Shown here one piece after another: positions 3 to 42,986 of a stretch of DNA of 64,000 bases (position 1 is its first letter; the number at the start of each line of letters is the position of its first letter). The translations under genes and the position numbers were made by a program. The DNA is from Candidatus Hydrogenedentota bacterium (GTDB lineage: Bacteria > Hydrogenedentota > Hydrogenedentia > Hydrogenedentales > JAEUWI01). The stretch spans positions 186,001 to 250,000 of the forward strand of contig JAEUWI010000001.1 of assembly GCA_016791475.1 (NCBI GenBank), in the 5' to 3' direction. The notes beneath the pieces are model-generated. The model was given only the letters and a program-made list of their open reading frames with translations, was not told the DNA's origin and made no database searches.

Positions 3-1808
3 GTTCGCGCCTTCGGCTCCCCCACCGGAGAGTCGGGGCTCAGTGTTATCATACGCGGACAGGCCGACCGACTTTTCTTCACGGTGGGCGATTCCGAGGG
101 GACCAGCCAACTGTGGTCTACGGACGGTAGCGTGGAAGGTACCCGCGTGCTGAAGGCGATCGAAAATGACTATCCCCTCCTGTTGAATCACTATACCGGC
201 TGCATACTTGGTGGAATACACTATGTGAGCGCCCGACAGTATGCCGAACCCGGGTTGTGGCGAACGGATGGGACTCCGGAGGGGACCTATTGTGTCAGGC
301 AATTCTCGGTTCCACCCGGGGTAATGTTTCCTCTGGATGAGCAGCGCTTTATTTTCGCCGCCGAATATGGAGAAATTGGCCACGAACTCTGGATATCCGG
401 AGGCACGCCAGAAACCACCACCCTGCTAAAGGACATTTATCCGGGGCCCGAGTCCTCTGGAATCAGTGATTGCTCGCGTTTCATGAGTCCCACAGGTCGG
501 CCAAGCGTCGTATTTGCGGCAACCAGTCCCGATGCTGGCCGGGAACTGTGGGTAACGGATGGCACCCCCGAGGGTACGCAGCTTCGCGCCGATTTGATTC
601 CGGGTTCGGGAACCTCCAGTCCGTCGAGTATGTTTGACGTGAGGGGTGCTCAGTATCTTGTGGCCGTCGGGGACGGAATCGGAAAGGAACTCTGGCGCTA
701 CGTCGCGGAGACGGACCTTTTCGAGCCGCCCATGGACATCTACAGCGGCATTTCCGGATCCGAGCCCTACGAGCTTTGTGGATCCGGGGAATCCCTGTTC
801 TTCAGCGCGCTCCACCCCGACACCGGCGAAGAACTCTGGTGCGTTCGAAACTTCCGGTCGGCGCCCGAGATCTTTGCGGATTTCAACCCTGGGCCTGAAA
901 GCTCGTTTCCCTACTACACCGTCGAGTTCAAGGGGCGCGTGGTCACCGTGGCAACCAGCCCGGTTTATGGACGTGAGTTGTGGATCTCAAATCTACTGAA
1001 TAAGGAAATGGTTCTGCTTGCCGATATCAACACGGATTTCAGCGTAAATCCATCCTCCTACCCCGACCACTTCACTTCGGCCGGAAATATACTTTTTTTC
1101 ACTGCCAACGATATCGCACATGGAACGGAACTCTGGCGCACGGACGGGACCAAAGACGGGACGCGGATGGTCAAGGATATTTTTCCCGACATCCCCGGCA
1201 GCAATCCGGAGAACCTCGTCTCCCTCGGCACATTGCTCTATTTCACTGCGGACGACGGGATAAACGGTGTGGAGTTGTGGCGTTCCGACGGAAGCGCGGA
1301 AGGCACCTCTATTGTAAAAGACATCCATCCCGATGGTGACGCGAGACCCGGCAATCTCATCGTTTTCAAGGGCCGACTCCTCTTCAGCGCCTTCGAGCCA
1401 ATTCAGGGCGAGGAACTCTGGACCCTCGAGGCGGGCGGACAACCCAAGCTGCTGAAAGGCATCGCCGAGGGCGAAGCGTCCAGCTCGCCGGACAAGTTCT
1501 TCGTCTGGAAGGACTTTCTCTATTTCCAAGCGGACAACGGCGTCCACGGCAGGGAGTTGTGGCGCACCGATGGCACGGCGGTGGGCACCGTCATGGTAAG
1601 CGATATTGTGGATGCCCCTTTCCAGAGTGGCGGACTCCTGTCTCCGACCGAGCATCAGGGCAAGATTTATTTTGCCGCCGATCTCGATGGTCTGGGCACG
1701 GAGCTCTGGGCCCTCGACGGTACTCCGCCGCGCTTCTCTCTTGTGCGCGACATTGTAAACGGGAATGCGTATGATGTACTCCAATCGCCGGTCGTGGACA
1801 GGCGATAG
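3..1808 (+). CDS. ELWxTDGT-repeat protein, 5' end outside window
   Basis: The frame is open from the first bases of the window, so the true start lies upstream; a GTG at 84 is only an internal possibility. The protein is built from about twelve copies of a unit whose core reads ELWxTDGT followed by G-T and a K/R-D-I step. Good copies include GLWRTDGT, RELWVTDGT, TELWRTDGT and RELWRTDGT; others are degenerate (KELWRYVAE, EELWCVRN). The period is about 45-50 residues, which suggests a beta-propeller or solenoid. Proteins of this repeat class are usually large and extracellular, but the signal peptide is not visible here. No catalytic motif is seen. It ends at TAG 1806-1808, 69 bp before the beta-helix gene on the same strand. 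The repeat class is clear; the function is unknown. Confidence 0.85.
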   Translation, partial: VRAFGSPTGESGLSVIIRGQADRLFFTVGDSEGTSQLWSTDGSVEGTRVLKAIENDYPLLLNHYTGCILGGIHYVSARQYAEPGLWRTDGTPEGTYCVRQFSVPPGVMFPLDEQRFIFAAEYGEIGHELWISGGTPETTTLLKDIYPGPESSGISDCSRFMSPTGRPSVVFAATSPDAGRELWVTDGTPEGTQLRADLIPGSGTSSPSSMFDVRGAQYLVAVGDGIGKELWRYVAETDLFEPPMDIYSGISGSEPYELCGSGESLFFSALHPDTGEELWCVRNFRSAPEIFADFNPGPESSFPYYTVEFKGRVVTVATSPVYGRELWISNLLNKEMVLLADINTDFSVNPSSYPDHFTSAGNILFFTANDIAHGTELWRTDGTKDGTRMVKDIFPDIPGSNPENLVSLGTLLYFTADDGINGVELWRSDGSAEGTSIVKDIHPDGDARPGNLIVFKGRLLFSAFEPIQGEELWTLEAGGQPKLLKGIAEGEASSSPDKFFVWKDFLYFQADNGVHGRELWRTDGTAVGTVMVSDIVDAPFQSGGLLSPTEHQGKIYFAADLDGLGTELWALDGTPPRFSLVRDIVNGNAYDVLQSPVVDRR

Positions 1809-1877
1809 CGCCCCGCGTCTGTCCACCTTGGCCGTGGACGCACAGCACGGTATCGGCAGGATCACAAGGAATTGCAC

Positions 1878-3230
1878 ATGAATCTCTCCAACGTTTATAA
1901 GCTCAATCGAAGGCAGATGCTGCAGGCCGCCGCTGGTCTGGCGGTCGGTGTAACCGTCACGGCCCGTTCCGGCCAGGCCGCCCCCATGCCCCAGGTCCGC
2001 CTGCCTCGTGCCACCTCGGGCGATGCCGTTTCCGAGCCGAACTGGGACGAACGCCTGACCATTACCGTCGGGCCGGACAAGGCCGATATCGCCGGGACCA
2101 CGGACCGCGCCATCCAGGCCGCCGTGGACTACGTGGTGCGACTCGGCGGCGGCACCGTGCACGTGCTGCCGGGCACCTACACCCTGCGCAATTCCATCTT
2201 TCTGCGCAAAGGCGTCCGTCTACTCGGCAGCGGGACGGACGCGTTGCTCTTCAAGAAAGAAAGCCAGGAAACCACCCTGGCCGACGACTCGGACTGGTAT
2301 GACCAGGAAATCACGCTTGTCAATCCCGATGGATTTCAGATCGGCGATGGCATCATCCTGGAAACGAAGAATGCCGACACGGGCGGTTTGGATGTACTTC
2401 GGCGCACCCTCGTTGCCCGGAGTGGCAACCGCTTCAAGCTGGACAAGGCCCTCCGCGCCAATTTCTGGACCGCCTCGGCCCCCACGGTGACCGCCCGCTT
2501 CCCTATGATCACGGCGGAAGAGCAGACCCACTTCGCCGTGGAGAATATCGCGCTGGACGGCAATCGGGCCAACAACGCGAACATCAACGGCAACTACGCG
2601 GGCGCCCTCTGGTTTCAGGATTGCAGCAACATTACCCTGACCGGCCTGCATGTGCGTGACTACAACGGCGACGCCATCAGCTTTCAGATCTGTCACGATG
2701 TGGTCGTGGAGAACTGCGAGCTGATCAACAATGCCGACCTGGGCATACACCCGGGGTCCGGCTCGCAGCGGCCGCGCATGGTCAACAATCGCGTGAGCGA
2801 TTCGACCTACGGCATATTCTTCTGCTGGGGGGTGAAATACGGCCTCGCCGAAGCCAACACCATCACGCGATGCAACTATGGCGTCTCCATCGGCCACCAT
2901 GACGACGAAAACCTCGTTATCAACAACGACATTGTCGCCAGTCCCGTGAACGGCCTCCATTTCCGGCCCGAGCGCGGCGAGGGCTTTACCGCCAAGGGCA
3001 ACCGATTCGAAAACAACCGTATCACCGATTCGGGAGGCGATGCGGGCGTGGCTGTGGACGTGCTTGGCGTCACGGCGAATAATAGTCTTATTCGCAATAC
3101 TATCAAAGAGACTCGAGGGCCCGCGCAGCGGATTGGTATCCAATTCGGACCGGACGCGGGCGCCATGGAGCTGGTGGACAATGTCATCGAAGGTTTCGCC
3201 ACGCCCGTGAACGATCTGAGGAAGGCCTGA
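1878..3230 (+). CDS. Exported right-handed beta-helix protein, Tat-type signal
   Basis: About 450 residues. The N-terminus has a twin-arginine-like segment (NRRQMLQ) followed by an alanine-rich hydrophobic stretch, so export by the Tat route is likely. After the signal comes a pectate-lyase-superfamily start, where a long variable-position helix opens with GGTVHVLPGTY, a form typical of single-stranded right-handed beta-helix proteins. Many N-rich turns follow (ENIALDGNRANN, VVENCELINN, NNRVSDSTYGI), as in parallel beta-helix repeats. Such proteins are often polysaccharide lyases, epimerases or glycosidases, but no catalytic residues could be assigned. ATG 1878 is preferred to the upstream in-frame TTG at 1872 because AAGGA at 1866-1870 is properly spaced for it. 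The neighbouring hydrolase and sulfatase fit a role in glycan breakdown. Confidence 0.8.
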   Translation: MNLSNVYKLNRRQMLQAAAGLAVGVTVTARSGQAAPMPQVRLPRATSGDAVSEPNWDERLTITVGPDKADIAGTTDRAIQAAVDYVVRLGGGTVHVLPGTYTLRNSIFLRKGVRLLGSGTDALLFKKESQETTLADDSDWYDQEITLVNPDGFQIGDGIILETKNADTGGLDVLRRTLVARSGNRFKLDKALRANFWTASAPTVTARFPMITAEEQTHFAVENIALDGNRANNANINGNYAGALWFQDCSNITLTGLHVRDYNGDAISFQICHDVVVENCELINNADLGIHPGSGSQRPRMVNNRVSDSTYGIFFCWGVKYGLAEANTITRCNYGVSIGHHDDENLVINNDIVASPVNGLHFRPERGEGFTAKGNRFENNRITDSGGDAGVAVDVLGVTANNSLIRNTIKETRGPAQRIGIQFGPDAGAMELVDNVIEGFATPVNDLRKA

Positions 3231-3239
3231 GGCGGAACA

Positions 3240-3293
3240 ATCGGACCGATCAGGCGGATCGGACCGATCAGATCGGGCGGATCCGGCCGATTT
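3240..3293 (+). repeat. 9-bp-period tandem array (about six units)
   Basis: Starting ten bases after the stop of the beta-helix gene, the sequence runs in 9-bp steps: ATCGGACCG, ATCAGGCGG, ATCGGACCG, ATCAGATCG, then two degraded units. Two of the units (ATCGGACCG and ATCAGATCG) recur exactly in the array at 30036-30116. It lies wholly between genes. Confidence 0.8.
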
Positions 3294-3316
3294 TTCAAAC
3301 CTCGGAGAGAGCTCCC

Positions 3317-4579
3317 ATGCGATTTTCTGTTTTTCTTTTTCTTGCCCTTGGCTTTACGGCGGGCGTTTCCGCCGATCCCGCAGCCGCTCGCGCTGATCTC
3401 CGTGCGGCCCTCGGTGATACCGTACTGACCGCTCCGCCATACTACCCCGCACCCGAAATGGATCAAGGGCCCATCAAAGCCGTCTTTTACGACGCCTTGC
3501 CCTATGGTGGCCATCCCACGCGGGCCTTCGCCTACCTTGCTGTGCCCGAGGCTCCAGCGGGCCAGAAGATTCCTGGCATGGTCCTCGTCCATGGCGGCGG
3601 CGGCACCGCCTTCCACGAGTGGGCGAAGATCTGGTACGACAAAGGCTACGCCGCCATCGCCATGGATCTTGAAGGTCAAATTCCACTGAACGACTTTCCC
3701 AATCGCCCGCGCCATGCCTTCAGCGGCCCCGTCCGCACGGGCATGTTTGACGATGAGGCCAAACCGCGCACAGAACAGTGGATGTATCATGCGGTAGCCG
3801 ACATCATGCTGGCGAACTCATTGCTGCGCACGCTGCCCGAGGTGGACCCGGAGCGCATCGGCCTCACGGGCATCAGTTGGGGCGGTGTGCTCTCAAGTCT
3901 AGTCGGCGGCCTGGACGATCGCTTCGTATTCACGGCTCCGGTCTACGGCTGTGGTTATCTCTACGATTCCAAAGGCTACTTCAATCGGATGGGCGCGGAC
4001 GACGAAGCCTCCCTGGAACTTCGAAAATACTGGGACCCCGCCCGTTACTTCACCGATGCCCCCATGCCCATGCTCTGGGTCAACGGCGACAACGATCCCC
4101 ACTTTTCCGTCGACACCCTGAGCCGTTCCCACGTCAGCGCCGGCCCCGAATCCATCCTCTCCATCCACCCGAAAATGCCCCATGGCCACGGCGTGAGTTG
4201 GGAGCCAGATCGGGTGCCGGAAATATACGCCCTGGCCGATCACCTGCTGAAAGGCACAGGCGCCCCCCTCACGCGGATAACAAAGCAACCCGAAGCGGCG
4301 GAAGGCAGCACCGTAGTTCTCCACTACGAAGGCGAACAGCCTGTCGCCTCCGCAACCCTCTACTACCTCACCGCGGCGCTCGAATACGTGCAAAGTGTCA
4401 AAAAAAAGCACCTCGACCTCGTGCAGCAATTTGAGGCCGCCGAGGCCAGACTCGACCCCGCGACCAAGACGGCCACGGCCAGTTTGCCCGAGGGTTGCAC
4501 GTGGTACTACATCAATCTCATCGATGATCGCGGTTGTATCGTTTCATCGAATCTGATGGCCGTGGCTCAGCCCGGGTAA
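3317..4579 (+). CDS. Secreted alpha/beta hydrolase (acetyl-xylan-esterase/dienelactone-hydrolase type)
   Basis: 420 residues with a Sec-type signal peptide (MRFSVFLFLALGFTAGVSA). The hydrolase fold is shown by an oxyanion-side HGGGG at about residues 92-96, a nucleophile elbow GISWGG with Ser187, a late Asp in NGDNDPHF and a His in the MPHGHG segment. The layout resembles acetyl-xylan esterases and dienelactone-hydrolase-like carbohydrate esterases, with an extra C-terminal beta-sandwich-like domain of about 100 residues. An ester-bond hydrolase acting on polysaccharide side groups outside the cytoplasm is the likeliest role; the substrate cannot be read from sequence. GAGAGAG lies just before the ATG. 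Its last 13 bp overlap the end of the convergent sulfatase gene. Confidence 0.82.
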   Translation: MRFSVFLFLALGFTAGVSADPAAARADLRAALGDTVLTAPPYYPAPEMDQGPIKAVFYDALPYGGHPTRAFAYLAVPEAPAGQKIPGMVLVHGGGGTAFHEWAKIWYDKGYAAIAMDLEGQIPLNDFPNRPRHAFSGPVRTGMFDDEAKPRTEQWMYHAVADIMLANSLLRTLPEVDPERIGLTGISWGGVLSSLVGGLDDRFVFTAPVYGCGYLYDSKGYFNRMGADDEASLELRKYWDPARYFTDAPMPMLWVNGDNDPHFSVDTLSRSHVSAGPESILSIHPKMPHGHGVSWEPDRVPEIYALADHLLKGTGAPLTRITKQPEAAEGSTVVLHYEGEQPVASATLYYLTAALEYVQSVKKKHLDLVQQFEAAEARLDPATKTATASLPEGCTWYYINLIDDRGCIVSSNLMAVAQPG

Positions 4580-6102
4580 TTGGGCGAGTGAACGATTGAA
4601 TCCGGTCGCAGCGCAAGCCGGCCGTCCTTTACCCAGGCTTCGCCCCGCGGTTCCAGGTGGGCGATGAGGCGCCTGCGCCACAGACTGAGTTTTTCCCAGT
4701 GCGCCGGGTCCCGCGCCAGATCCTTGGTCTCGCCTGGATCGGTGTCGAGGTCAAAAAGCTGCTCCTCTCCCGTGCGTGCATGGAATATGTACTTCGTGCT
4801 CCCGTCGGTCAGGGCGCTCCAGTGATTGTCCGGGCTGTAGCAGATGTCGTGCTCCAGATCGATCACCGTCCGCCAGTCATCCGCACCCCGAATCACGTCC
4901 AGCATGCTCCGACCGTCGAGCGGCTGGGGCGCAGTTGTTCCCGCCGCGTCAATGAAGGTGGGGAGGATGTCCCGAATCTCGACGGGGGCGCGATATACCT
5001 GGCCGCGCTCAGTTGCGACCATGCCCTCCGGCCACCGAATCATCATGGGGATGCGCGCCGATGGCTCATAGGCGTAGCCTTTGCGCCAGAGGTGGTGATC
5101 CCCCGTCATGTCGCCGTGGTCGGAGGTATAGAGAATCAGCGTATTTTCGAGCATTCCCCGCCGCTCCAGCGTGTCCAGCATTCGCCCAACCTGCTCGTCC
5201 ACGAAAGAGACGGAGCCATAGTAACCCTGGCGTGACAGGCGAACTGGCTCGGCGCCGAGGTCGCCGCGCCAAAGCGTGTCCTTGTCGGTATCCCGTTCTC
5301 GATTGCCTCTACTCCACTCACCCAGATGGGGCGCGGGCAGCGCTTTGTGGGCGTAGTAATCCATCCAGCGCTTTGGTGGATCATAAGGGGAGTGGGGGCG
5401 GACAAACGATACCTTCATGAAGAAGGGTTCGGGCTGGTCATAGCTTTCCAGGAAGCGATTCGCCACGGAGCCCGTCCAGTGGGTGGGGTGCAGCTCTTCG
5501 GGCAGGGCGTAAGGCGCGGCCCGGTATGAGTTCGGCCCGATACCCGTCGCGCCGGAATCCAGATGGGGTGCGACAGACGCAAACCACGCTTGGTAATCGC
5601 TCAGGAAATCCGGAGTCTCGACCCGGGTGGCCTCGTCGAGCACGAGCCGGTGAAAACCGTGCCCTCCGCGTTGTGGCGACCAGTGCATCTTCCCTACACC
5701 CAGCGTGTAGTAGCCCGCGTCGCGCAAGAGTTGAGGCATTTCCACGGGATAGCGGGCCGGCACTCTTGAGTAGCCCAGCATCCCGTGGTTCCAGGGCGCC
5801 ATCCCCGTGAGCAGTGCGGCCCGCGCCGGTGTGCAGGTGGGTGTAGAGGAATAGGCGCAACGGAACCGGGCCCCCTCCCGGGCCAACCGGTCCAGATTCG
5901 GCGTATGAATGACCGAATTGCCGTCGGCGCCCACGCAGTCCCCCCGGTGCTGGTCCGCCATGATAAACAAGATGTTGGGCCGGCTCGCGGCTCCCGTTGC
6001 GGGGAGGGTAAATGCCGACGCGGACAGGGACAAGGCCGCGCACGCGGTACCCGCCTGCAGGAAGGCCCGTCGGGTTACGCCGGAGTGTGGTCTCAAGGAC
6101 AT
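4567..6102 (-). CDS. Tat-exported type I sulfatase
   Basis: 511 residues. The N-terminus carries a Tat motif (TRRAFLQAG) and a hydrophobic stretch. The mature part starts RPNILFIMADQHRGD, with the metal-binding DQ at residues 50-51. The sulfatase signature CTPAR starts at Cys90, the residue converted to formylglycine in the CxPxR type. A later SDHGDMTGDHHLWRKG segment is the usual second metal/active-site region. Length and layout match family S1 arylsulfatase-like enzymes, which remove sulfate esters from glycans or glycosaminoglycans in the periplasm. Activation would need a formylglycine-generating enzyme encoded elsewhere. GGGAG precedes the ATG by eight bases. The gene converges on and overlaps the esterase by 13 bp, and is divergent from the STAS gene. 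Confidence 0.93.
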   Translation of the reverse strand: MSLRPHSGVTRRAFLQAGTACAALSLSASAFTLPATGAASRPNILFIMADQHRGDCVGADGNSVIHTPNLDRLAREGARFRCAYSSTPTCTPARAALLTGMAPWNHGMLGYSRVPARYPVEMPQLLRDAGYYTLGVGKMHWSPQRGGHGFHRLVLDEATRVETPDFLSDYQAWFASVAPHLDSGATGIGPNSYRAAPYALPEELHPTHWTGSVANRFLESYDQPEPFFMKVSFVRPHSPYDPPKRWMDYYAHKALPAPHLGEWSRGNRERDTDKDTLWRGDLGAEPVRLSRQGYYGSVSFVDEQVGRMLDTLERRGMLENTLILYTSDHGDMTGDHHLWRKGYAYEPSARIPMMIRWPEGMVATERGQVYRAPVEIRDILPTFIDAAGTTAPQPLDGRSMLDVIRGADDWRTVIDLEHDICYSPDNHWSALTDGSTKYIFHARTGEEQLFDLDTDPGETKDLARDPAHWEKLSLWRRRLIAHLEPRGEAWVKDGRLALRPDSIVHSPNYPG

Positions 6103-6252
6103 GGATTCTCTCCCGATTGGCTGCGGTTCTCCTGCCGTCCATGGTGCGGTATGGCCTGCGGGACATTCAAGCCGTCGAAACTGGCCCGCGCGACGTGGAA
6201 TCCGCTACACTGTCCAGCGAGATGCAGCAATTCCACGGGACGACGACACGCC

Positions 6253-6597
6253 ATGCAGATTTCCCAACAGAGTACCGCCGGGGCCACAATTCTCTCGCTG
6301 CTCGGGCGGCTGGACGAGTTGGCCACGGCCGAGGTGGAGCGGGCCTTCACCGGTATCCTCAACAACGAGAGCCAGGGGCTTATCGTGGATATGGACGGTG
6401 TGGAGTATGTCAGCAGCAGCGGCCTGCGCGTCCTGCTCATGCTCATGAAGGCCATGAAAAACCAGCAACGCGTCCTCAAGCTCTGCAATCTGAGCCCTTT
6501 CGTGGCCGAAGTATTCGAAGTCAGCAATTTTTCCGTCATGTTTGACGTGCACGACAGTCTCGATTCCGCACGCCGTGAATTTGAAGGCGGCAACTAG
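6253..6597 (+). CDS. STAS-domain protein, anti-sigma-factor-antagonist type
   Basis: 114 residues, essentially one STAS domain. The core VDMDGVEYVSSSGLRVLL matches the conserved D-x-S-S-x-G-L loop of SpoIIAA/RsbV-like proteins, where the first Ser after the loop is the usual phosphorylation site. Such proteins bind anti-sigma-factor kinases and are switched by phosphorylation. The gene sits eleven bases before a Ser/Thr kinase on the same strand, so the kinase may phosphorylate it directly or both may act in one partner-switch. An upstream in-frame extension reads through from the antisense of the sulfatase and looks spurious; ATG 6253 gives a domain-length protein. No strong ribosome-binding site is visible. 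Confidence 0.88.
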   Translation: MQISQQSTAGATILSLLGRLDELATAEVERAFTGILNNESQGLIVDMDGVEYVSSSGLRVLLMLMKAMKNQQRVLKLCNLSPFVAEVFEVSNFSVMFDVHDSLDSARREFEGGN

Positions 6598-6608
6598 CCG
6601 GGCGCATC

Positions 6609-8621
6609 ATGGACGAAGACGAAAACTTCAGCAAGGGTCCGCCGCCCCATTCCCGGCCCGACCTGCTCGATTCTGTCGTGGCGCACGATCAGAAGACCCA
6701 GGTGCTGAAGGGGGCCATGGCCCAGGCCTCGACCTTGATCGCGGGCGGACCGCCCCTGGAAGAGATAAGCGAGGCCTGGTACATCGGCTACCGGCTGGAT
6801 GACCGCTACGAGATCAAGGAGATCCGCGGCGGGAAAGGGGCCAGCGGCATGGGCATCGTTTTCATCGTCGAAGACGATCATGGCAACCGCAGTGCGGTCA
6901 AGACGCTGCAGCGTCGTTTTCGCACCGAGCTTCACCTGCTCCAGCGCTTCGTGCGCGAAGCGCGCACCTGGATGCTCGTGGGTTCCCATCCGAATATCGT
7001 ATGCGCGCGCAAACTGGAAATTATCGAGGCGGCGCCCTGCCTCTTCATGGAGTGGGTGCCCTCCGATGAAAAGGGCATCCATTCCCTCTCCCAGCGATTG
7101 AACCACGGGCCGCTCACGATTGTGGAGACCCTGGATGTCGCCTACCAGTTCTGCCTTGGCATGCTCCACGCCACCCGCGCCGTGCCCGGCCTGGTTCATC
7201 GCGACGTCAAGCCGGAGAATCTTCTCCTCACTCCCGACGGCACCATCAAGATAACGGACTTCGGGCTGGTGCGCACCCGGGGCATGGAGGAGGACAGCCT
7301 GGAACAATGGGCCCGGTCGGAGGTTTTTGAAGATTTCTCCGGAAACATAACCCGAGTGGGCTCCATCTTCGGTACTCCGGCCTACATGGCGCCCGAGCAG
7401 TTTGCCCGGACCAACGAAGTCGATTTTCGCGCGGATATCTATGCCCTTGGCTGCTGTCTGTTCGAGTGTCTCACCGGGCTTCCACCCTTTATCGTCCAGA
7501 GCGACGGGTCCGCCGGCCGCCTTCTCGAAATGAAGCGGATGCACCTCAACGAAACGCCCGAATCCCTGCGCGAGCTCCTGGGACCCACCTTCCCGACCGC
7601 CGTCGACGCCCTCGTCCGCCGTTGCCTCGCCAAACACCCGCGCGATCGCTGGGAGAGCTACGAAGACCTTTGCGTGGCCGTGCTCAGCATCATGGACGCT
7701 CTCGACATCATGCCCCGGTCGTCCGAATTCAACCGGCCCTCGCCGGCCGAGATCGCGGCGCAACTTCGCTCCATCACGCTCCTTGAAGGCTACGACCAGG
7801 CCATCCACATGCGCAAACTGCGCGAAGGTCAGGAGCAGAGCCCCTACGCCTTTCACCTGGCCCTGGCCTCCTACTTCCATTGCGTTGACGATCCCCAGGA
7901 AGAAGAGCATCAGCTAAGCAAGGCCTTCGCCCTCAAGGATCATGCCGCGGGCTACGAGGCGGTTCGCCGACTTACCGAGCTCTGGATCAAGCAGGGGCAC
8001 CATGCCCGCGCCGATGTGGTTCTCCAGGCCTACCTCCGCCAGGCGCCCGGATCGCTCGATCAGGTGCTCGAACCCGTCATCCGTGTCGCCATCGGAAATG
8101 AGCGATTTGACGAGGCCCTCGCCATCCTGCAGGAGTTTCCCGACTCGTTCCGCACGCGCCTCTTGCGCGCCGAAGTGCTCCGCGCCAGTGACCGGCGCGA
8201 AGAATTGCGGGTATTGCTGCACACCATGCAGGACGCGATCCTGCAAGAGATCGGCCGGAAAATTGAGAGTATCGGCTACGATGATGTGGTGGGCTGGAGC
8301 CGACCGGACGATCACCTGACCCTCGAAATGGTGCTCGACGCACTCGTGCCCGAGATGGACACGCTCCCGCTCGAAGTCGCCCGAAACGCCATCTGGCCCG
8401 ACATCAGCGGCTATCCGGATTTTGCGCCCGACATGGCCTGGCTATCCTTCACGCTGGGCGAGCTCGCCACCCTGGACCAGGAAATCGAACCTGAAACGGC
8501 CGCCGCCTACGCCCGATTCGCCACCTTCCTCGGATATCCCAGCCGCTTGGAAAAGCACCTGGAGCGGGACGATTACTGGTTCTGGATGCGGGAAACACAG
8601 CACGGGAAGCGAGGCGCCTGA
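6609..8621 (+). CDS. Ser/Thr protein kinase with repeat-like C-terminal tail
   Basis: 670 residues. The N-terminal 60 or so residues are unassigned. A Hanks-type kinase domain follows (about 65-370): a glycine loop GGKGASGMG, a catalytic Lys in AVKTL near residue 97, the catalytic loop VHRDVKPEN near residue 199, DFG near residue 217, and the GTPAYMAPEQ activation/P+1 segment. All key residues are present, so an active kinase is expected. The C-terminal 280 residues are helical with TPR-like spacing (EALAILQEF, AFALKDHAAGYE) and probably bind a partner. No transmembrane helix is seen, so it is cytoplasmic. It lies between a STAS protein and a small unknown protein, with spacings of 11 and 2 bp, which suggests one operon. 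Confidence 0.93.
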   Translation: MDEDENFSKGPPPHSRPDLLDSVVAHDQKTQVLKGAMAQASTLIAGGPPLEEISEAWYIGYRLDDRYEIKEIRGGKGASGMGIVFIVEDDHGNRSAVKTLQRRFRTELHLLQRFVREARTWMLVGSHPNIVCARKLEIIEAAPCLFMEWVPSDEKGIHSLSQRLNHGPLTIVETLDVAYQFCLGMLHATRAVPGLVHRDVKPENLLLTPDGTIKITDFGLVRTRGMEEDSLEQWARSEVFEDFSGNITRVGSIFGTPAYMAPEQFARTNEVDFRADIYALGCCLFECLTGLPPFIVQSDGSAGRLLEMKRMHLNETPESLRELLGPTFPTAVDALVRRCLAKHPRDRWESYEDLCVAVLSIMDALDIMPRSSEFNRPSPAEIAAQLRSITLLEGYDQAIHMRKLREGQEQSPYAFHLALASYFHCVDDPQEEEHQLSKAFALKDHAAGYEAVRRLTELWIKQGHHARADVVLQAYLRQAPGSLDQVLEPVIRVAIGNERFDEALAILQEFPDSFRTRLLRAEVLRASDRREELRVLLHTMQDAILQEIGRKIESIGYDDVVGWSRPDDHLTLEMVLDALVPEMDTLPLEVARNAIWPDISGYPDFAPDMAWLSFTLGELATLDQEIEPETAAAYARFATFLGYPSRLEKHLERDDYWFWMRETQHGKRGA

Positions 8622-35579: not shown

Positions 35580-37163
35580 TCACTCCTCCGCGGGTACGTC
35601 GGGAAAGGCGTCGCGGATGGCGATGAAGTCTTCGATATTGTCCAGAAACACCCCGGTGAGCGCGTCGTCGAATTGCTTTCCCCGCTGCTCGCGGAAGTAG
35701 TCCAGAATGCGGTCGAGCGGCCAGGCTTCCTTGTAGACGCGCTTCACGCCTAGCGCGTCAAAGACGTCCGCGATCGCGGTGATGCGGGCAAATACGTGGA
35801 TCTCCTCGCCCGCGAGGCCGTTCGGATAGCCCGCCCCGTCCGGGCGCTCGTGGTGCTGCAGGGCGATGGTGGCCGCGGCTCCGAGCAGTTCGCGCTTGCT
35901 GTGGCAGAGCATTTCATAGCCCACGGTGGTGTGGGTTTGCATGAGCCGCATCTCCGCGTCGTTAAGCTTGCCCGGCTTCTTCAAGATGGAATCGGGAATC
36001 GCCATCTTGCCGAGATCGTGCATGGGCGAAGCGAAGCGAAGCACGGCGGTCTCGTCGCGCCCGAGGCCCGCTTTCTGCGCAAGGAGTGCGCAGTACTCCG
36101 CCACGCGCTTGACGTGATTTCCCGTTTCGCGCGATCGCGTCTCCACGATTTCACCAAGCTTGAAGATGATCTCCCGCTGCGTTTCGAGTATCTCGCCGTT
36201 CAGACTGATGTTGTCGTAAGCAATGGCCACGTTCTTGCAAAAGATCTGCAAAAGGTACTGGTCCCATTCGTCGAGCCCCTTCCATCCCTTGAGGTAAAGG
36301 AGACTCTCCGATCCGCTTTCGGATCGGAAATAGCCCACATAGCGGTTGTCATCCAGGTGGAGCTCTTTGCGCTGTTTCCGAGCCTCCGCCAGGCAGGTGA
36401 GCACATCCTCGTCGCTGAGATCCTCCACCGCATGGCTCACGAAATCGGAGTAGATCCCTGTGCCCGTGACAATACGCAGGGTGCCGTCGCTGGAGGTGGC
36501 CGCAAAGCCGGAGGTCTTGCAGTAGAGCGCATCTTCCTTGAGGTTGAGCAGGGCGGTGAGCTGGGTGAGCACCCCGGTGGAGAATTGCTCCATGGCGCGG
36601 GTTTCGAAGATGCACGACGACGCATGGAGGATGGTCTCCAGGCCCCGCTTGTTGGCTTCGAGTGTTTGCAGGTGCTGATAAGAGCGGAGGGAAGCCACCA
36701 TCGTGGTGAAGAGCTTGGTGGCGGTCAGCTCCGTCTTCGCCTTGTAATCGTTTATGTCATAGTTGAGGATGACCTGCTCCTCCGGCGCCTGGCCCGGCTG
36801 GCCCGTGCGGAGCACAATCCGGATGTTGAAATTGTGCAGCTCTTCCCGAATGTACTGGGCCAGTTCCAGTCCGGCATTCTCGGTCTCCATCACCACATCA
36901 AGGAGCACCATCGCGGCGTCGGGATGGGCCTGGAGCAAGACCCGCGCCTCGGCGGCGGAGTGGGCGCTGACAAACTCCAGAGGCCGGTTGTCGAATACAA
37001 ATCCGTCCAGCACGAGCCGGGTCACGTTGTGCACTTCCGGCTCGTCGTCGACGATGAGCACCTTCCACGGATGCCCCTGCGGATCCGCAAGCGGCGCCCC
37101 GTCGTCATCGGCGAACATCAAGTCATCATGGTCTTCCTGGAGGATATCTGGGGAATGACTCAT
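35580..37163 (-). CDS. Response regulator with DUF3369 and HD-GYP domains
   Basis: 527 residues. A receiver domain has VLIVDDEPEV (acidic Asp39-Asp40), phospho-acceptor Asp89 in VLLDVVME, and Lys in YKAKTE. The middle region with LQTLEANKRGLETILHASS matches DUF3369 proteins. The C-terminal HD-GYP domain carries HVKRVAEYCALLA, the HD pair at 382-383 (SPMHDLGKMAIP) and HHERPDGAGYP with GYP at 445-447, so active c-di-GMP phosphodiesterase is expected. The start overlaps the kinase stop by ATGA, so it is the cognate regulator of the ammonium-sensor kinase. Output should be a change in c-di-GMP. Confidence 0.95.
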   Translation of the reverse strand: MSHSPDILQEDHDDLMFADDDGAPLADPQGHPWKVLIVDDEPEVHNVTRLVLDGFVFDNRPLEFVSAHSAAEARVLLQAHPDAAMVLLDVVMETENAGLELAQYIREELHNFNIRIVLRTGQPGQAPEEQVILNYDINDYKAKTELTATKLFTTMVASLRSYQHLQTLEANKRGLETILHASSCIFETRAMEQFSTGVLTQLTALLNLKEDALYCKTSGFAATSSDGTLRIVTGTGIYSDFVSHAVEDLSDEDVLTCLAEARKQRKELHLDDNRYVGYFRSESGSESLLYLKGWKGLDEWDQYLLQIFCKNVAIAYDNISLNGEILETQREIIFKLGEIVETRSRETGNHVKRVAEYCALLAQKAGLGRDETAVLRFASPMHDLGKMAIPDSILKKPGKLNDAEMRLMQTHTTVGYEMLCHSKRELLGAAATIALQHHERPDGAGYPNGLAGEEIHVFARITAIADVFDALGVKRVYKEAWPLDRILDYFREQRGKQFDDALTGVFLDNIEDFIAIRDAFPDVPAEE

Positions 37164-40100
37164 ACTTCATGGTCCTCAATCGTGGTTGCCATGCGAATGT
37201 AGAAGGTCGTGCCCGCTCCTGGCGTACTCTCGCAATGGATGCTTCCCTGCAGTTGGCTTGAAACAATGTTGTAAAGGATGTGGAGCCCCAGCCCGCTGCC
37301 GCCCGTGCCGCGGCGCGTGGTGAAGAAGGGGTCGAAGATTCGCCCCAGATACTCCGGTGGAATGCCCTTGCCGTCGTCCCGATAAGTGAACAGCAACTCC
37401 TTGCCTTCCGGGGCGAATCGCATCAGGATCTGCCCCGCGTCTTCCGGTTCGTAAGCGTGGATCATGGAATTTACGATCAAGTTGGTAATCACCTGTGACA
37501 GGGCGCCGGGGTAGGTGTTCAGTTCAAGACCCTCGGGGCACTCCAGCGTGATCTCGTGCTTCGTCTTTTTCAGCTTGGGCTGGAGACTCAACAGCACTTC
37601 GCCCACATATTGCTTGAGATCGAAAACCCGCATGGCCTCGCTGGACTGGTCCACCGCCACCTTCTTGAAACTCTGCACCAGCTCCGACGCCCGGGTGAGA
37701 TTCGTCATGAGCATGGTGGTGGATTCGCCCGCGATCCGGAGGTAATTGTCCAGGTCCGACTTCTTCATGCCGTTGCTCGCGAAGCGGTCGAGCAGCTCCC
37801 GCGTTTTGAGTTGCAGGTGCGATGTGGCGGTCACCGCAACGCCCACGGGCGTATTGATCTCGTGGGCCACACCCGCCACCAGTTCCCCAAGCGCGGCCAT
37901 CTTCTCCGAGGTGATCAGCTTGTTTTGCGTCCGCTCCAGATTCTCCAGCGTCTCGCGGAGCTCACGATTCGACTGCTCCACCGCCCGCGTACGCTCGGAC
38001 ACGCGGACCTCCAGCGACTCGTTAATCTCGCGCAGGGCGTCCTGCGCGTAGCGCCGCTCGGCCTCTTCATAGGCCAGCACCAGGAAATCCGAGGCCGATG
38101 CGGCAAACTGCGCTTCCTCCGGAAACCAGGGGCGCCGGCCACCCACATGCTCGAAGAACATCAACCCCCGCAATTCACCCCCCAGGTTGATCTGGGCGAT
38201 GAGTATGGCGGTCGTGTCATACTCGTTGAGGTAGGCGCTCCAAAGGCTCTCGGTGCGCGGATCGTTCATCGCGTCGTCCGTGCTGATAATGCGCTGGCCA
38301 TGGACCGCGCTTCGCAATGCCTCGGAAAACTCGACCGGCTCGGGGCGCTTCATATCCTGCAGCACGCCCCCGGTCCCCGCCAGCACATAGACATTCGCCA
38401 GGCGCTTGCCGTCCTCCATGATGCGCCAGACCGATACGCGATCCAGTTCAAGAGAGGTGGCGCACTCGTAGGCGATGGTCCGCAGCAGCACGTCGAAATT
38501 GCCGGCGGATTCGCGATGGGTCTGGGCAAGCGAGGTGAGCGCCTGGTTGTGGCGGCGTATCCGATCGCGACTCGCCTCCAGGGCGTCTTCCGCCAGGCGT
38601 TGCTCGGTCACGTCTTTCACCAGCCCGGTGTATTCATAAGCACCCCCGGAGCCGCTTCGGGAAAGGCGAAAGTCCACCGGAAAGCGCTCCTGGTTCCCGC
38701 GGACCCCATAGATCAGCGGTGGACGCCCGTTGCTGTCCTGCGACAGGAAGCGTTCGAGTTGCACCGGCCCACCCCCGGCTTCGGCGGCGAGCAGCAGGCC
38801 GATCGGCCGTCCCACTGCATCCGCCATGGAATAGCCGAAGAGCTTCTCGGCCCCGGGATTGAGGCTGGTGAGCAGTCCGTTGTGCGTAAACGTAACGATA
38901 CCGTCTTGAATATCGCGCACAATATGATCTGAGCGGGCTACGGCCTTCTGGAGATAGTCCAGCACCTGATTGTAGCGTCGCGCTATCTGCCCGACTTCCG
39001 TGAAAGGTTCCACCGGCGCCCGCGCGCTCAGGTTGCCCGTGCGCCCGTGTGATTCCATGACTTGAAGCAGGTCGATCAACTCGGTCGTCGCGCCGTGCTC
39101 GGAAAAATTCAGTCCCTGCTCTTCGGCTTCCGCGGATACGCGGAAGGGAAATATCCGGTTCAGCGGCCAGCAGATGAGAAACGTCACCCCGAAAGCCCAC
39201 ACGGCGGCGGCGGCGATCCCCAGACTCTGGGCGATAAGCTGCCCCTGAAAATCCAGGCCTGTTTTCAGGAGCGCCCCATCGCCAAAGAGGGCGACCGCCA
39301 GGGTTCCCCAGATGCCCGCCCCGAGGTGCACGGGAATCGCGCCCACGGCGTCGTCGATACGACATCGGACCAGAAGCTGTTCCAGCGCGAGCATGATCAT
39401 GCCGCCGACGCTCCCGATCACGAGAGACTCCGACGCCGTGACCGCGTGGCAGTTTGCCGTAATGGCCACCAGGCCCGCCAGTGTTCCGTTGATCACCAGC
39501 TCCGCGTCCGGACGCTTGCGCAGGGTCCAGCCGATGGCCAGCGTCGTGATGCCGCCAAAGGAGGCCGCCAGCGCCGTGTTGGCAACGATGCGCGCCACGC
39601 TCGCGTCCAGGGTCAGGGTGCTGCCCCCGTTAAACCCAAACCAGCCCAAAAAGAGCAGAAGCGCGCCCAGCACGCTCATGGGAAGATCGTGTCCGGTGAT
39701 GCGCTGGGGCGGCCCGCCTTCCGGGAAGCGGCCCTGGCGCGGGCCGATGAGCAGCAGGATCGCCAGGGACACCCAGCCGCCCACGCTGTGAACCACGGTT
39801 GAACCGGCGAAGTCCACGAAGCCCCGATTACCCAGCCAGCCCCCGCCGGAAGCACCGTCCGCGCCATTCCAGACCCAATGCCCCAATACGGGATAGATCA
39901 GCCCCGACACGATTAACGCTACGAGGGAGTAGCTCAAATAGTGCATGCGCTCCGCCGCCGCGCCGGAAAGTATGGTCACGGCGGTGGCGCAGAACATCGC
40001 CTGAAAGAAGAAAAAGGCGGTGCGCCATTCACCGATGGTCTCGAAGGGCAGCAGGAAGGAATCCGTGCCCACCCAGCCGCCCCGGGTCGCGCCAAACATC

Positions 40101-40288
40101 AGACCGAATCCGAGGGCCCAGAACAGGCAAAAGGATATGCCAAAATCGGTAAAGTTCTTGAGGGCGACGTTGATGCTGTTTTTCGAGCGCGTGAACCCGC
40201 TTTCGAGGCACATGAAGCCCCCCTGCATCATAAAAACCAGCGACGCCGTCACCAACATCCAGAGGATATCCGATTGCTCCTGGGACAT
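37160..40288 (-). CDS. Ammonium-transporter/histidine-kinase fusion (Amt sensor)
   Basis: 1042 residues from ATG 40288 (GAGGAG upstream). Residues about 1-410 are an Amt/Mep transporter: FFQAMFCATA-VTILSGAAAERM, GHWVW, DFAGSTVVHSVGG and IPVHLGAGIWGT. The twin pore histidines are His167 and His321, near AmtB His168 and His318; the conserved Asp, Trp and Phe are also kept. Then come a HAMP-like/PAS region (ARRYNQVLDYLQ; IVTFTHNGLLTSLNPGAEKLFGY), a GAF domain, a HisKA domain with VAHEINTP (His809) and a HATPase_c domain (NLIVNSMIHAYEP, DDGKGIPPEYLGRIFDPFFTT). The fused Amt-kinase design is known from the Kuenenia Ks-Amt5 ammonium sensor. Coupled to the HD-GYP regulator by ATGA. Confidence 0.95.
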   Translation of the reverse strand: MSQEQSDILWMLVTASLVFMMQGGFMCLESGFTRSKNSINVALKNFTDFGISFCLFWALGFGLMFGATRGGWVGTDSFLLPFETIGEWRTAFFFFQAMFCATAVTILSGAAAERMHYLSYSLVALIVSGLIYPVLGHWVWNGADGASGGGWLGNRGFVDFAGSTVVHSVGGWVSLAILLLIGPRQGRFPEGGPPQRITGHDLPMSVLGALLLFLGWFGFNGGSTLTLDASVARIVANTALAASFGGITTLAIGWTLRKRPDAELVINGTLAGLVAITANCHAVTASESLVIGSVGGMIMLALEQLLVRCRIDDAVGAIPVHLGAGIWGTLAVALFGDGALLKTGLDFQGQLIAQSLGIAAAAVWAFGVTFLICWPLNRIFPFRVSAEAEEQGLNFSEHGATTELIDLLQVMESHGRTGNLSARAPVEPFTEVGQIARRYNQVLDYLQKAVARSDHIVRDIQDGIVTFTHNGLLTSLNPGAEKLFGYSMADAVGRPIGLLLAAEAGGGPVQLERFLSQDSNGRPPLIYGVRGNQERFPVDFRLSRSGSGGAYEYTGLVKDVTEQRLAEDALEASRDRIRRHNQALTSLAQTHRESAGNFDVLLRTIAYECATSLELDRVSVWRIMEDGKRLANVYVLAGTGGVLQDMKRPEPVEFSEALRSAVHGQRIISTDDAMNDPRTESLWSAYLNEYDTTAILIAQINLGGELRGLMFFEHVGGRRPWFPEEAQFAASASDFLVLAYEEAERRYAQDALREINESLEVRVSERTRAVEQSNRELRETLENLERTQNKLITSEKMAALGELVAGVAHEINTPVGVAVTATSHLQLKTRELLDRFASNGMKKSDLDNYLRIAGESTTMLMTNLTRASELVQSFKKVAVDQSSEAMRVFDLKQYVGEVLLSLQPKLKKTKHEITLECPEGLELNTYPGALSQVITNLIVNSMIHAYEPEDAGQILMRFAPEGKELLFTYRDDGKGIPPEYLGRIFDPFFTTRRGTGGSGLGLHILYNIVSSQLQGSIHCESTPGAGTTFYIRMATTIEDHEV

Positions 40289-40473
40289 GCTTCTCCTCGC
40301 TCTGGACAGGAAAAACCATACCCGAAAGTAGGATTTGCGGGGTAATCCGTACGCGAGGGTAATCTTCCGGTCCACTTCCATTGCCTGACACAACAGGGAG
40401 CAGGAAATGTGCCGAGACGGGAGCGGGGCCTGGAACCGGGAAGGGGCAATCGTCGATCACGCGCCGCAGCGGA

Positions 40474-42011: not shown

Positions 42012-42890
42012 TCAGTCGCGAAACTGCTCGTGGCAGGTATTGCAGGACTGGTTCAGGGCCTTGAAGGCGACCGTGGCGTTGTCCGGCTGGTTGGCGCGCA
42101 GGGCCTCCTCCAGTGCTGCTGCCGCGTCCAAGGCCCGCTTCATCTCCTGCTGGTACGCGGCGGGGCGCTCGGCCTCGGTCTTGAGGCGAAGAATCTCGGT
42201 GAAGCTCTCGCGGAGCTGGAGGGCTTCGTGGGCCGGTGCGATGTCCGGGTGGTCCGCCGGAGTTTTCCAGCCGGCCTTCTCCGCCAAGGCCAGGTTGTCC
42301 TTCTGGCGATCAATGAGCGCCATCGCCTCTTGAAAGGGTGGCGTATCCGCGCTCGCAGGAAAGGTGACGTCCACCGCGGCGATCTCTTCTTTCGTCGGTG
42401 GCGTAAAGGTGTCGATAATCTCATAAAGCCCGGTGTACTTCGCCGCCGTGCCCGCCGCCTTCAGAAAAGCATTCGCCTGGCCGGGTTTCCACTGGCCGGA
42501 GGCTTCCATACCCGCCGCCACGGCCGCCGGACCCCGATGCTTGCCGTGGTGGCAGTGGAAATAGACCGGCCCCTCGGTGTCCGTCAATACGCGGCCAAAC
42601 TGGAGACCCCGCTCGCGGGAAAAGCCGTCATAGCCGATGGGAAGGTGGATGTATCGCAGGCCGTACTTCTTCGCCGTTTCCACATCGGGCTTTGCCCCGT
42701 CCACGCTGACAATGGTCTTGATGCCCAGATCGGCCAGGGCCTTCAGCGCTTCTTCCGTGTGGGGTTCGCCGCCGCTGTAGACGGACTCCGTCACCTGGAA
42801 CACATTCTCGCAGCCGCTGACTTCGAGCTTATTCCAGTCCGCGCCCGGTTCCGCCGCCGCACAAAACAACAGTGCCAGTACAATCCACAT
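42012..42890 (-). CDS. Exported tyrosine-phosphatase-like and cytochrome c'-like fusion
   Basis: 292 residues with ATG preceded by GGAGGG. A signal peptide (IVLALLFCAAAEPGA) precedes a dual-specificity phosphatase-like domain (ESVYSGGEPHTEEAL, IKTIVSVDGAKPD, GPVYFHCHHGKHRGP) with the CX5R signature Cys113-Arg119 and a possible acid Asp88. Residues about 180-292 form four charged helices ending in SCNTCHEQFR; the CxxCH haem site is Cys283-Cys286-His287, the normal C-terminal end of cytochrome c'. Both domains are periplasmic by signal. The pairing suggests a haem-controlled phosphatase or a redox-linked binding role. No family with this fusion is known to me. Confidence 0.8.
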   Translation of the reverse strand: MWIVLALLFCAAAEPGADWNKLEVSGCENVFQVTESVYSGGEPHTEEALKALADLGIKTIVSVDGAKPDVETAKKYGLRYIHLPIGYDGFSRERGLQFGRVLTDTEGPVYFHCHHGKHRGPAAVAAGMEASGQWKPGQANAFLKAAGTAAKYTGLYEIIDTFTPPTKEEIAAVDVTFPASADTPPFQEAMALIDRQKDNLALAEKAGWKTPADHPDIAPAHEALQLRESFTEILRLKTEAERPAAYQQEMKRALDAAAALEEALRANQPDNATVAFKALNQSCNTCHEQFRD

Positions 42891-42986
42891 AACGCCCTCC
42901 GTGATGCGGGCACACCGCCCGCCGTTGCCGCTGAGATAAGCAACTCCCGCGGGCGCACCACGCGCCCGCAGGAGACAAAACGCAGT

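Follow-up and report, generated by a model that had tools for sequence, protein, structure and literature searches.

Closest described systems

PTP-type enzymes are best known for their regulation by thiol oxidation, and in most of them a Ser or Thr after the P-loop Arg speeds turnover. The protein described here is encoded by an open reading frame (ORF) in a 64,000-nucleotide stretch of a Candidatus Hydrogenedentota genome; this whole stretch is referred to below as the window. It resembles TpbA, a periplasmic tyrosine/dual-specificity phosphatase of Pseudomonas aeruginosa, in being exported and in having the dual-specificity-phosphatase (DSP) fold, and D105, C132 and R138 of TpbA align to D88, C113 and R119 of the ORF. 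However, TpbA has no haem domain, and its P-loop is HCKHGNNRT, compared to HCHHGKHRG in the ORF. The marks of the DSP superfamily found in the ORF are the HCX5R P-loop, the fold and the general-acid Asp (D88); it lacks the usual, but not universal, Ser/Thr after the P-loop Arg, which is Gly120.

The PFA-DSP inositol pyrophosphatases (AtPFA-DSP1, Siw14) have Lys-His-Arg at the matching positions of the P-loop, and their CxxGKHR signature occurs in the ORF as CHHGKHR; this likeness covers the P-loop residues and the overall fold. The P-loop of AtPFA-DSP1 includes C150, K154, H155 and R156. The last three bind the pyrophosphorylated substrate; the catalytic cycle lacks a general acid, and its general base is proposed to be H155 (PMC9038691). 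Helper residues outside the P-loop of PFA-DSPs are K186, R188 and D191, in the α5–α6 loop. Siw14 from fission yeast cleaves pyrophosphate, polyphosphate and inositol pyrophosphates (PMC10653929). The PFA-DSPs differ from the ORF in that they are eukaryotic and haemless, have a Thr (Thr157) after the Arg in place of Gly120, and lack a general acid, while most members of the ORF family have Asp88. The DUF442 domain of Blh, which has a PTP fold, is a sulfurtransferase (PMC5823870).

The C-terminal part of the ORF shares with class II cytochrome c (PF01322) and cytochrome c′ a four-helix bundle with a C-terminal CxxCH. It differs from these in being fused to a phosphatase fold, in its invariant helix-A Met and in its shorter A–B region. 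Cytochrome b562 has the same positions for the helix-A Met and helix-D His, but its haem is non-covalent and it has no fused enzyme. NaxLS (Kusta0087/Kusta0088) of the planctomycete Kuenenia is a heterodimer of two cytochromes, has no phosphatase, and has C32 at the place of Met190. Both halves of the ORF come from known families, and their joining occurs as a fusion and as neighboring genes.

Sequence features and export

The features of the gene are as follows, with positions in the window.

42012–42890, minus strand: whole gene, 292 amino acids, with export signal, DSP-fold domain and class II c-type cytochrome domain (ORF, Pfam, AlphaFold2 model)
42895–42900, minus strand: GGAGGG, likely ribosome-binding site, with the ATG 4 bases downstream (sequence)
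42852–42890, minus strand: signal peptide, residues about 1–13, cleavage site approximate (sequence; low pLDDT at 8–15; signals of relatives)
42375–42833, minus strand: DSP fold, residues 20–172 (Pfam, AlphaFold2 model, structure matches)
42627–42629, minus strand: Asp88, counterpart of the TpbA general acid Asp105 (alignment; Asp in 53/64 relatives)
42534–42557, minus strand: P-loop H112-C113-H114-H115-G116-K117-H118-R119 (CX5R), followed by Gly120 and not Ser/Thr (conservation, PFA-DSP comparison)
42339–42374, minus strand: linker, residues 173–184, of almost constant length in the family (R119–M190 spacing; pLDDT 88–93)
42015–42338, minus strand: four-helix class II cytochrome domain, residues 185–292 (Pfam, predicted structure, structure matches)
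42321–42323, minus strand: Met190, invariant, predicted distal haem ligand (structural range match and conservation)
42030–42044, minus strand: CNTCH, residues 283–287, covalent haem attachment, with proximal ligand His287 (sequence and conservation)
42018–42020, minus strand: Arg291, invariant, after the CxxCH (conservation)

The N-terminal sequence, MWIVLALLFCAAA, is a short hydrophobic signal without a basic n-region. A hydrophobic N-terminal stretch is present in 64 of the 66 upstream stretches of relatives, where the signals are Sec-like or lipoprotein-like, and a loose pattern finds a lipobox-like motif in 28 of the 66. The signal peptide suggested in an earlier, sequence-only reading of the window is borne out by the hydrophobic N-terminus and by these similar signals. 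The same reading located the CX5R at 113–119 and the CxxCH at 283–287, and both are exact: they are C113–R119 within HCHHGKHR, and CNTCH.

Pfam identifies the DSP-PTPase family PF22785 at residues 45–128 (27.7 bits, cut-off 27) and Cytochrom_C_2 (PF01322) at residues 242–291 (30.0 bits, cut-off 26.5), with several related phosphatase families matching below threshold. A search of the 292-residue protein against NCBIfam gave no model above its cut-off. The source genome contains genes for c-type cytochrome assembly, making covalent attachment of haem feasible.

Elsewhere in the window, positions 37160–40393 (minus strand), when read by eye, appear to encode a protein with an ammonium transporter domain joined to PAS, GAF and histidine kinase domains, adjoining an HD-GYP response regulator at 35580–37163 (minus strand).

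Predicted structures

The full-length structure was predicted using AlphaFold2 with 18 aligned relatives, giving a pLDDT of 91.7 and a pTM of 0.84. The model consists of a mixed α/β domain (residues 20–172) followed by four helices at 185–205, 219–235, 244–265 and 269–291. The best solved match of the phosphatase domain is TpbA (Z 17.5, rmsd 2.8 over 156 residues, 21% identity), in a match that spans residues 14–173 and has a Foldseek E of 7e-7. PFA-DSP structures match at Z of about 15.7, and a DUF442 protein is also among the fold matches. A 28-residue P-loop peptide gave no matches when compared to the PDB.

Modelled alone, the haem domain is also a four-helix bundle, with pLDDT 92.1. Its best structural match is NaxLS (Z 14.0, rmsd 2.5, 103 residues), followed by cytochrome c′ (3vrc, Z 13.1) and cytochrome cb562 (Z about 12.2–12.7), where values of Z below about 13 may be generic for helix bundles. 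True homology to class II cytochromes is indicated by the CxxCH motif together with the Pfam match, and Cytochrom_C_2 is matched by 16 of 19 family members at E ≤ 0.01. The domain had earlier been described as cytochrome c′-like; a class II bundle with CxxCH is what we find, but the description needs to be widened, as the domain matches b562 and NaxLS too.

The ORF joins a domain with the phosphatase fold to a bundle of the class II cytochrome c type, and this assignment is well supported. The fusion proposed from the sequence is genuine and conserved: four helices are predicted for the C-terminal part, and relatives keep both the CX5R and the CxxCH, so that the proposal stands on both points.

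Conservation and distribution of the family

Conservation was counted over 64 distinct relatives, or fewer at positions where sequences end short. C113 and R119 are unchanged in all 64, M190 in all 63 that cover the position, and the CxxCH and R291 in each of the 62 long enough to include them. H118 is kept in 62 of 64. The position of D88, which aligns to the TpbA general acid D105, is Asp in 53 of 64 relatives and another residue in 11, and the residue after R119 is Gly in 48, Ser in 14 and Ala in 2 (n = 64), being Gly120 in the window copy. Given that the Ser/Thr is lost in most members and the general-acid Asp in 11 of 64, catalysis may be slow or may follow a different chemistry. The spacing between R119 and M190 is 68–72 residues in 62 of 63 relatives. 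This near-constant spacing suggests that the domains are held in a fixed placement, and the high confidence of the linker agrees.

Matches to the family profile at E ≤ 1e-25 were found in 99 of 294 sampled Planctomycetota genomes, in 5 of 68 genomes of Hydrogenedentota (the phylum of the window) and in 2 of 240 genomes of Verrucomicrobiota. The copies are nearly always single in a genome and full length, and they occur also in the cultured organisms Blastopirellula marina and K23_9. The recurrence of the fusion across many genomes, including cultured ones, rules out an assembly artefact, and the 64 distinct relatives rule out chance juxtaposition of two domains. The architecture is an established conserved family, mainly planctomycete, that has no curated family in the libraries searched. 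The sequence-only reading knew of no described family with this order of domains, and we likewise found no curated family joining both halves in Pfam or NCBIfam, and no paper on such a fusion in the open-licence literature.

In a tree of 63 sequences, the window copy groups with two Verrucomicrobiota (96/93) and apart from the copy from its own genus, and the five copies from its own phylum do not form one group. This placement makes a transfer of the gene between phyla probable.

Recurrent gene neighbors gave no functional partner, operon partner or substrate hint among the loci compared. Neighbors that we named topoisomerase-like, amidohydrolase-like and redoxin-like by reading their sequences occur at fixed offsets in up to 11 loci, and look like within-clade synteny.

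We note two further types of sequence. The phylum of the window also has conventional exported DSPs that lack a haem domain, mostly with the P-loop HCxHGADRTG (loci L006–L010). A divergent copy with the P-loop TCETGRDRA (L111 in genome G375, minus strand, reverse-complement coordinates 4798–6789) shares one open frame with an upstream CaCA-type cation exchanger; this may be a genuine fusion, or the two may be separate genes read in a common frame.

Split genes and relatives lacking a cytochrome

In three planctomycete genomes, the phosphatase-fold and cytochrome parts are separate neighboring genes on the same strand. Their coordinates, given as stop-to-stop frames, are:

G108 (L169), 4910–6078: DSP 4910–5563; cytochrome in frame 4987–6078
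G239 (L170), 6975–8071: DSP 7418–8071; cytochrome 6975–7442
G250 (L168), 1773–3435: DSP 2482–3435, near the contig end and with its 5′ part unclear; cytochrome 1773–2606

In each pair the cytochrome gene encodes a CxxCH and a Met in helix A, and it carries a separate export or lipoprotein signal. The P-loops of the three DSPs are HCHAGRHR, HCKNGKHR and HCHHGKHR. By comparison, 11 other DSP homologues from Planctomycetota had no ORF of at least 60 amino acids containing CxxCH within the flanks examined, and of the 10 whose P-loops were readable, nine have GxDRT and one has GNHRA, these numbers being counts among related sequences and not a significance test. The comparison indicates that the haem partner travels with one type of P-loop; the pairing of haem and phosphatase is common in Planctomycetota, and has a P-loop signature of its own. 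No cytochrome was found near the relative with GNHRA (L161, 2755–3525), whose P-loop, HCHGGNHRAG, is of an intermediate type.

The encoding of the two parts as neighboring genes in three genomes is strong evidence that they work together. It also strengthens the proposal, made below, that the haem controls the phosphatase.

Proposed function

We tentatively propose that the protein is an extracytoplasmic cysteine phosphohydrolase, whose activity is set or preserved by the redox state of the haem; we infer the catalysis, the substrate and the control by haem. The N-terminal domain would be a cysteine-based phosphohydrolase, with C113 as nucleophile, R119 binding phosphate, and K117 and H118 lying in a P-loop similar to that of the PFA-DSP/Siw14 pyrophosphatases. 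Its site of action would be the periplasm or the outward-facing side of a membrane. The C-terminal bundle would hold one covalent haem c via H287 and probably M190, as a closed haem for electron transfer or redox sensing, and the short, near-fixed linker would keep the two domains in a set arrangement. Most likely, the redox state of the haem would determine how active the catalytic cysteine is, or else the haem would keep this cysteine reduced. The likeness of the P-loop to those of AtPFA-DSP1 and Siw14 makes a phosphoanhydride or polyphosphorylated substrate plausible. The more specific idea, that a PTP-type enzyme with pyrophosphate- or polyphosphate-like specificity is switched directly, outside the cytoplasm, by the redox state of a haem with His/Met ligation, is doubtful.

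The protein might instead be a redox enzyme with a CX5R loop that accommodates sulfane sulfur or an oxyanion other than phosphate, and with a haem that serves as electron donor or acceptor. The DUF442 protein among the fold matches is consistent with this, as sulfurtransferase activity is proven for the DUF442 domain of Blh (PMC5823870), and so are the adjoining electron-transfer haem, which suits a redox reaction, and the loss of the Ser/Thr after the Arg and sometimes of Asp88. We nevertheless regard it as unlikely, because the loop is a CX5R with a PFA-DSP-like GKHR, most members keep Asp88, the closest fold is that of TpbA, a true phosphatase, and no recurring sulfur genes were seen among the neighbors. 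In addition, the DUF442 models fall below their cut-offs on the ORF: PF04273 gives 15 bits (cut-off 26.1), and the Blh/DUF442 models of NCBIfam give 20.5 (NF040641, cut-off 625) and 15 (TIGR01244, cut-off 85.85).

It is still less probable that the protein is a tethered electron carrier, whose phosphatase fold binds a partner that is phosphorylated or polyanionic but carries out no catalysis. The haem ligands are indeed invariant, most members lack the Ser/Thr and some lack the general acid; but C113 and R119 are invariant in 64 of 64 relatives, which pure binding does not require.

A phosphohydrolase governed by its haem, as we propose, would offer a directly testable example of a PTP-type enzyme with an attached haem cofactor. 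The sequences suggest a putative enzyme tied to redox state outside the cell membrane, and so a candidate link between redox and phosphate in Planctomycetota, a phylum in which little is known of the enzymes outside the cytoplasm. If true, haem gating would be a planctomycete link between electron flow and extracytoplasmic phosphate chemistry.

Predicted haem ligands

Residues 7–114 of the haem-domain model cover residues 1–106 of cytochrome b562, which places M190 on Met7 and H287 on His102, both of them ligands in b562. Similarly, model residues 6–115 cover residues 25–129 of NaxL, which places M190 on Cys32. These placements are read from the ends of the ranges, and assume that the first and last helices are gapless. 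We take C32 to be the distal ligand in NaxL, on the basis of the titles of mutant entries in the PDB. Sequence alignment was tried for placing Met190 and rejected: the HMMER alignment shifts helix A by three residues (about one turn), and the hhalign alignment was confined to the final helix. The assignment of Met190 therefore rests on the structural ranges and on its invariance.

The haem is likely to be closed and six-coordinate, with His/Met ligation by H287 and M190, given that M190 is invariant and falls on the positions of b562 Met7 and NaxL C32 in the predicted structure. A true cytochrome c′, that of Rhodospirillum molischianum, has a Met near the haem that is unbound, and for this reason we infer, rather than assert, ligation by M190. 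A genuine cytochrome c′ with a free site, at which binding of NO or CO would switch the phosphatase, is very unlikely: Cytochrom_C_2 does score above its Pfam cut-off and cytochrome c′ structures are among the top matches of the bundle, but the distal residue of cytochrome c′ is variable and does not bind, whereas Met190 is invariant (63/63) at a ligand position. This Met speaks against the open NO/CO site of cytochrome c′, the protein to which the earlier reading likened the domain, and a closed redox haem is more probable than gas sensing of the cytochrome c′ type.
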